Assembly: GCA_005798405.1 (NCBI GenBank)
Contig: SYJQ01000006.1
Span: forward strand, 1-43,485
From: Nitrosopumilaceae archaeon
Lineage (GTDB): Archaea; Thermoproteota; Nitrososphaeria; Nitrososphaerales; Nitrosopumilaceae
Direction: 5' to 3'
DNA length: 43,485 bases
Shown: piece by piece, positions 27,375-28,280 of the stretch
Position numbering within the stretch: position 1 is the stretch's first letter
How the letters are laid out: every line of letters begins with the position of its first letter
Translations under genes and position numbers: made by a program
Notes under the pieces: model-generated
Database searches by the model: none
The model's input: only the letters and a program-made list of their open reading frames with translations
What the model was told of the DNA's origin: nothing

Positions 27375-27803
27375 ATGAATAAAAAAATAATCATCATTTC
27401 TTCGGTGTTGATAATAGCTCTAATAGGATTATTGTTTAATCCAAGTGACAAGAAAAATAATGATGTAATTTTTCATGTTACTTTAGCAGATCCTGATTTG
27501 TACAAAAATGGAGTTTATTCTAATTCATTTACTGCAAATAAAGGAGATTATATTTTCAAATTTGTTCCCAATGGTGATAGCCCTCAATCTCTAACTATTT
27601 TGTTAAAAGGAAAAAACTATGATTTTTCTGAAAATTTTAAGTTGAAAGGAACTTTACATCAAACAGGAATATCAGAATACTATACGTGGGATTATGAAGG
27701 AGGAAAAGCAATTTCAATTCCAGCTCAACAAATTATAGAAATTGAAATTAATCCAAATGGAAATGAATTAGGTCCAGTATCAGTAGATATTATTGAAAAG
27801 TAA
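27375..27803 (+). CDS. Membrane-anchored or secreted small protein, unknown function
   Basis: The 142-residue protein starts with a signal anchor (KKIIIISSVLIIALIGLLF, 3-21) and has an extracellular beta-rich body: NDVIFHVTLADPDLYKNGVYSNSF, GDYIFKFVPNGDSPQSLTILLKG, and a late EIEINPNGNELGPVSVDI. The strand pattern is like a small cupredoxin or Ig-type sandwich, but no copper ligands are obvious. It sits 41 bases after tfb and just before the structured RNA at 27806. Function unknown. Confidence 0.65.
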   Translation: MNKKIIIISSVLIIALIGLLFNPSDKKNNDVIFHVTLADPDLYKNGVYSNSFTANKGDYIFKFVPNGDSPQSLTILLKGKNYDFSENFKLKGTLHQTGISEYYTWDYEGGKAISIPAQQIIEIEINPNGNELGPVSVDIIEK

Positions 27804-27805
27804 AA

Positions 27806-27959
27806 GGCGTTTACCCCTTAACAGCAGAACTTTGAGAGATTTCCTCTCGTGGTCAGGTCGTTAAAACGCCTGATTACCTTTTTCGTTCTGCGGGGTAACG
27901 CCGCTTTAGTCGATAGGAATTATATCCTTCGGCATTAATTGTTGTAGTTACTTCAACTA
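27806..27959 (+). ncRNA. Candidate structured RNA 2 (multibranched)
   Basis: A GC-rich island with extensive pairing. P1: 27806-27817 (GGCGTTTACCCC) with 27892-27902, 11 bp with one bulge. P2: GCAGAAC (27824-27830) with GTTCTGC (27885-27891), stacked on P1 after a 6-base bulge. P3: GAGAG (27834-27838) with CTCTC (27844-27848). P4: GGT-CAGG (27851-27857) with CCTG (27869-27872) and ACC (27876-27878). A 3' hairpin pairs TAGTT (27945-27949) with AACTA (27955-27959) before an AT-rich end. It does not match 5S, SRP, RNase P or tRNA landmarks. Strand and ends are inferred. Confidence 0.65.
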
Positions 27960-28280
27960 TTTAACATTTAGTATGAAAAATTATAATGTTTTATCAAATT
28001 TTATGAAAAATTTTATCATACTAAAAAAGATTAATGAAAACAATATCAAAATAATGAAAATTAAAAATTCAATATGAAAATGTAAAGATGATAATGATGA
28101 AAAATATTTGATTGGCATTTGATTTTGATAGAAGCAATTGATGAATTATTCCAGGAAAACAGATTAGATTTTGAATACAGTTTGTAAAATATGAAATTAT
28201 AAGATTATTCTCAAATTACAAGAATTGATCATACGAATAGGAATAAGGGTCATAAAATTCCATATTGTTAGTTTAAAGAG

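Follow-up and report, generated by a model that had tools for sequence, protein, structure and literature searches.

A family-wide structured RNA of the Nitrosopumilaceae with a leaderless nine-codon reading frame: a candidate ribosome-coupled regulatory RNA

The window (the whole 43,485-nucleotide stretch of DNA that was analysed), whose genus we infer to be Nitrosarchaeum rather than Nitrosopumilus, the genus named in the earlier note, almost certainly carries on its minus strand an RNA gene running from about 27935 to 27795. This gene lies between an SDR gene, divergent from it, and the gene of a 142-aa protein, convergent with it; genes for TFB, a Snf7/CdvB-like protein, APS kinase and inositol monophosphatase are found in the vicinity. 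The 142-aa protein gene (27375-27803), whose product has no Pfam match, is syntenic with the RNA family-wide, and its 3' end meets that of the RNA. Judged from sequence, the RNA gene would be a stand-alone, structured and so far undescribed one, with its own archaeal promoter and a candidate transcript. Its features, all on the minus strand, are the following.

27957..27969, minus: archaeal BRE/TATA box AAATGTTAAATAG (family consensus AAATNTTAAATAG), strongly conserved upstream
27942..27948, minus: promoter-proximal element CTACAAC (family consensus CTATAAT), from comparison of upstream regions
27795..27935, minus: putative stand-alone RNA gene, copy 1, about 140 nt, its ends placed by TATA spacing and the T-rich tail
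27934->27806, minus: core match of the covariance model
27906..27935, minus: predicted leaderless nine-codon ORF, AUG CCG AAG GAU AUA AUU CCU AUC GAC UAA (MPKDIIPID*)
27909..27933, minus: P0, 5' hairpin within the ORF; 78% of cells paired, two-sided changes in 5/5 pairs
27892..27901, minus: P1, 5' strand of the closing helix; 96.4% paired
27807..27817, minus: P1, 3' strand, assigned by covariation to the same helix as 27892..27901
27885..27891, minus: P2, 5' strand GCAGAAC; 97.0% paired, two-sided changes in 7/7 pairs
27824..27830, minus: P2, 3' strand GUUCUGC, pairing with 27885..27891
27818..27823, minus: 3'-side bulge separating P2 from P1
27853..27873, minus: P3 hairpin, variable in sequence and length; 90-93% paired, two-sided changes in all pairs
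27834..27848, minus: P4 hairpin GAGAG-GAAAU-CUCUC, the most conserved element, with a near-invariant loop G and U
27790..27805, minus: T-rich 3' tail, probable archaeal terminator, from family-wide T content

The assignment to the minus strand follows from an asymmetry of the pairs, a TATA box at a fixed distance and a T-rich 3' end. When the minus strand is read, the non-Watson-Crick cells of P1-P4 are G.U in 62 cases and A.C in 8, and each A.C on this strand would read as G.U on the other. In 91 distinct upstream regions, the TATA box, of consensus AAATNTTAAATAG, mostly occupies the fixed positions -35 to -24, and the 20 nt 3' of the RNA end contain 50% T across the family. Runs of T5-T7 are found inside the RNA on the plus strand in many homologues, the minus strand being mostly free of them. 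When the promoters of the RNase P RNA and the SRP RNA were inspected, an identical motif at the same place was not seen. The earlier note had read the RNA on the plus strand, where the folding energy is indeed lower; this advantage stems, however, from G.U pairs in P0 and beside P3, and the pair asymmetry, the promoter, the T-rich end, the internal T runs and the coding frame described below make a plus-strand RNA hardly conceivable. The strand signal of P0 is mixed, a C.A mismatch being common in copy 1. This mismatch of copy-1 P0 (27909-27933) is kept in about half of the divergent homologues and is possibly a bulged A; copy 2 has U-A or U.G instead.

The locus folds far better than expected from its composition. 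For 27790-27980, z is -7.0 on the plus and -5.0 on the minus strand, and it is -5.6 for the minus-strand RNA alone, none of 200 shuffles folding as well in each case. On the minus strand, the architecture is composed of a 5' hairpin (P0), a 10-bp P1, a 7-bp P2, a 3'-side bulge and the hairpins P3 and P4. Among 92 distinct sequences, 92.9% of cells pair and two-sided changes are found in 31/35 pairs. Shuffles give 85 two-sided cells where the real alignment gives 395, and slid controls reach at most about 50% pairing. In 48 divergent sequences, 93.2% of cells pair and 29/35 pairs show two-sided changes, which exceeds all 500 shuffles, slid structures pairing at 46% or less. Alignments made with the covariance model are biased in favour of the structure, to which they were fitted, but first counts on sequence-only alignments go in the same direction. 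The model was used because sequence-only MAFFT misaligned the P1 3' strand between copies 1 and 2; RNAalifold on MAFFT alignments undercalled the structure. In a mutual-information scan, the 13 top-scoring column pairs all belong to the model, and when covariation was screened for additional pairs or a pseudoknot, nothing stood out beyond it. The multibranched fold proposed earlier thus holds in outline, as a closing helix, inner helices, a branched domain and a separate end hairpin each show covariation, whose absence would have spoken against the candidate. Its details are changed: only two hairpins (P3 and P4), rather than four helices, branch above P1-P2, the supposed 11-bp closing stem is a 10-bp P1 stacked across the 3'-side bulge on the 7-bp P2, and what was taken for a 3' hairpin (27909-27933) is the 5' hairpin, which contains the nine-codon ORF.

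The earlier statement that the element is neither a terminator nor a 5S, SRP, RNase P or tRNA molecule is borne out by Rfam and ARAGORN searches. With Rfam 15, at gathering and relaxed thresholds, neither the window nor 20 divergent homologous loci match any family, the output being limited to sub-threshold chance matches outside the RNA; the candidate therefore survives a comparison that the earlier note had regarded as potentially fatal. ARAGORN finds no tRNA or tmRNA in the window. The locus matches neither RNaseP_arch nor Archaea_SRP, and the RNase P and SRP RNAs of the genome lie elsewhere (C51:12320-12598, 187 bits, and C13:980-1291, 105 bits). An H/ACA guide RNA was also considered and rejected, as the P1-P2 bulge is one-sided and an ANA box is absent before the T-rich tail.

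The covariance-model search proposed earlier was run, and the matches are family-wide, well beyond a single genus. By BLASTN, homologues are found in 17/18 genomes of the genus and 155/250 of the family, often two per genome. A model built from 15 copy-1 sequences (R1) matches 181/400 genomes of the order, all of one family among the matches listed; in this order-wide sample, family genomes without a match are mostly the less complete ones, plus the genera g7, g9 and g22, and g7 has a weak match under looser filters. A model built from the 48 divergent sequences (R2) finds the RNA in 63/63 GTDB Nitrosopumilaceae genomes and in 0/335 others of a phylum-wide sample, with one to about five copies per Nitrosopumilaceae genome. 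Among named records, the P4-P2 motif is carried by Nitrosarchaeum, Nitrosopumilus and other Nitrososphaerota.

Copy 1 has the same gene neighbourhood throughout the family, from Nitrosarchaeum as far as genomes resembling, in our view, Nitrosopelagicus (brevis) and Cenarchaeum (symbiosum), and this neighbourhood includes no consistent sense gene downstream. The location of copy 2 differs among genera; in the genome of the window (G000), it lies on a short contig (G000:C49:336-458, L002). Its ORF in Nitrosarchaeum has eight codons; some species have another in-frame AUG three bases further 5', which brings the count to nine. A third, diverged paralogue (G000:C41:9388-9504, L283), present in Nitrosarchaeum and Nitrosopumilus, has the same promoter and a nine-codon ORF. 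Nitrosotalea-like genomes (G178, G179 and G188) have 3-5 matches at relaxed thresholds, two of which lie 8-10 kb apart.

The leaderless ORF, which the earlier reading had overlooked together with the archaeal promoter, the paralogues and the family-wide distribution, is a constant feature of these RNAs. A start and a stop are found in 176/176 distinct 5' regions, about 90% of which have exactly nine codons. The start codon is at a single fixed position in 170 of the 176 (ATG 163, GTG 5, TTG 2), and the remaining 6, shifted by the aligner, likewise have nine codons. In these 170 ORFs, the length is nine codons in 152 cases, eight in 15, ten in 1 and twelve in 2, and the stop is TAA in 100, TAG in 50 and TGA in 20. 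Frame 0 has no internal stop in any of 101 distinct ORFs; the two remaining frames have one in 75/101 and 42/101. In a phylogeny of the RNA body, with the ORF excluded, at least 33 switches of stop-codon type and at least 7 switches of start codon have occurred, and the frame is never lost. The ORF stop lies 3-4 nt upstream of P1 in nearly all. As the A of the AUG follows the centre of the TATA box by about 26 nt, which is archaeal promoter spacing, the ORF should be leaderless, and transcription would start at or beside its AUG.

The peptide, for its part, is not conserved: 82 peptides are found among 95 ORFs, and the synonymous share of inferred changes (22/110, 20%) does not exceed the 26% expected at random (p = 0.19). 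Nine codons are kept even where the hairpin sequence is wholly replaced (MLVKPQKMA*, MIVESLQMA*, MQKHVNYNK*). Just as the RNA, its strand and its structure emerge from comparison of homologues, so do the frame, its length and the lack of constraint on the peptide. Translation of the nine-codon frame is thus very probably conserved, and evolution seems to keep the act of being translated, not the sequence of the peptide. The nine-codon length could in part be inherited instead of selected; its maintenance across paralogues and replaced hairpins is a counterpoint.

The interpretation of these constraints that we favour is that the RNA acts in trans, that one ribosome translates the nine codons and terminates against P1, and that the act of translation is itself the function; we give it a probability of about 0.45. 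A ribosome would load at the 5'-terminal AUG, read nine codons and terminate with P1 directly at its mRNA-entry side. Counted from the first P-site base while the stop codon occupies the A site, P1 would start about 10-11 nt further downstream; the dimensions used here are those of the bacterial ribosome, which unwinds mRNA near that distance as it enters. As P1 would lie near the unwinding point, the stop could be reached without unfolding P1-P4, so that one ribosome would be held on the RNA while P1-P4 remains folded. Within a stretch of about nine codons, moreover, a second ribosome could not yet follow. Loading of the ribosome might be coupled to offering the near-invariant P4 hairpin to a partner, be it protein or rRNA, and the RNA would then be a ribosome-associated regulatory RNA. 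This geometry and the loss of peptide constraint suggest that what is conserved as a function is occupancy by a single ribosome, with P4 as the contact for the partner. In a bolder form, advanced with more reserve, the RNA would belong to a new class, in which a fixed nine-codon leaderless ORF is a ruler by which a single terminating ribosome is parked or counted at the border of the fold, its loading driving a regulatory or ribosome-binding function in trans.

Other explanations share part of this evidence. Translation of the mini-ORF could simply serve the RNA, in that repeated passage of a ribosome over the first 30 nt would protect the 5' end or gate decay or folding. Conservation of the start, stop and length without that of the peptide would be expected, as would P4 being the most conserved element, since the active part would be P4 or P3 of a trans-acting non-coding RNA; taken alone, however, this explanation accounts neither for the nine-codon length nor for the stop 3-4 nt from P1, and we consider it rather unlikely. 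The RNA could also be a decoy or hibernation factor, abundant copies of which would engage the 70S ribosome at the leaderless AUG and hold it under low energy. The leaderless start, the ORF sized for a single ribosome, the several copies per genome and the strong, constant promoter are all in line with such a role, and archaeal sRNAs with ribosome occupancy are described in Haloferax (PMC12482152), but a stop codon would release the ribosome rather than hold it, which makes this unlikely.

Two further possibilities give the ORF a more classical role. The start, frame and stop bear a genuine coding signature, which could be that of a dual-function small mRNA whose product is the nonapeptide and whose stabilising 3' structure is P1-P4. 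The peptide shows no purifying selection, however, with 82 different sequences among 95 ORFs and a synonymous share no higher than expected by chance; this possibility is very unlikely, and a dual-function sRNA was rejected. Alternatively, a structured domain downstream of a short leaderless ORF recalls leader-peptide regulation, in which an attenuator or riboswitch acts in cis on a downstream gene, and a sense gene is indeed found 200-450 nt downstream at a few copy-2 sites. The lack of a consistent downstream sense gene nevertheless disfavours cis-regulation: the syntenic gene downstream of copy 1 is convergent in the loci examined, the neighbours of copy 2 vary between genera, and the T-rich tail directly follows P1. 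A cis-acting leader or riboswitch was hence rejected as well, being highly improbable, and the earlier view that the RNA is not a riboswitch of the SDR gene is supported.

Individual features of the RNA recur in leader peptides, dual-function RNAs and ribosome-associated sRNAs, but it fails those of their defining tests that were run, as a gene in cis is absent and the peptide is not conserved. Like leader peptides (attenuators and erm-type leaders), it has a very short ORF by a structure, with conserved start, frame, length and stop, and in both cases translation, not the product, can matter; leader peptides, however, act in cis, whereas the archaeal RNA stands alone, with neither the peptide nor stalling codons conserved. 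SgrS and RNAIII likewise combine an ORF and a structured part in one small RNA, but their proteins are conserved and longer, whereas here the nonapeptide drifts and only length and frame stay. tmRNA is also a structured RNA with a very short ORF; the present RNA differs in having no tRNA-like domain or CCA end, an ORF at the extreme 5' end and a peptide that is not conserved. In Haloferax volcanii, sRNAs with ribosome occupancy, some without detectable protein, are likewise small archaeal RNAs, but of a different lineage, and the accessible part of the report does not describe a shared family, structure or nine-codon frame (PMC12482152). Tan1, an abundant ncRNA of 229 nt from marine Euryarchaeota, is likewise a lineage-specific structured RNA of marine archaea, but it belongs to a different phylum, the accessible part of its description does not mention a mini-ORF, and it is set apart here by description, not by sequence (PMC5069720). 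The present RNA is not described in Rfam or in the accessible literature. Prior detection of its transcript as an unnamed small RNA is possible; small-RNA work on marine metatranscriptomes reportedly exists from earlier.

Nitrosopumilaceae ammonia-oxidising archaea are among the most abundant cells of the ocean. If the ruler interpretation is true, such an RNA would be near-universal in the family of the ocean's dominant ammonia oxidisers; a multi-copy, family-wide RNA of this kind was not found in Rfam or in the literature searched. A conserved nine-codon ORF that is independent of its peptide is an unusual constraint, and it would offer a minimal system in which the question of whether translation per se can be the function of an RNA is directly testable. 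The covariance model also allows public transcriptome and ribosome-profiling data to be read again.

Shine-Dalgarno mimicry by P4 (GAGGNNAUC vs GGAGGUGAUC) is kept as a lead only, as the P4 loop does not converge on UG. One homologue has an exact 9-mer Shine-Dalgarno match in P4: in L108, it contains AGGAGGUGAUC, which would be fully complementary to the 3' end of archaeal 16S rRNA, most members matching only in part. A 16S or 23S rRNA gene was not detected in the MAG G000 despite its 96% completeness, which is probably a gap of the metagenome assembly. In the third paralogue, P4 is enlarged, and its relatives carry ACAUGU twice, a doubling that could form a pseudoknot.
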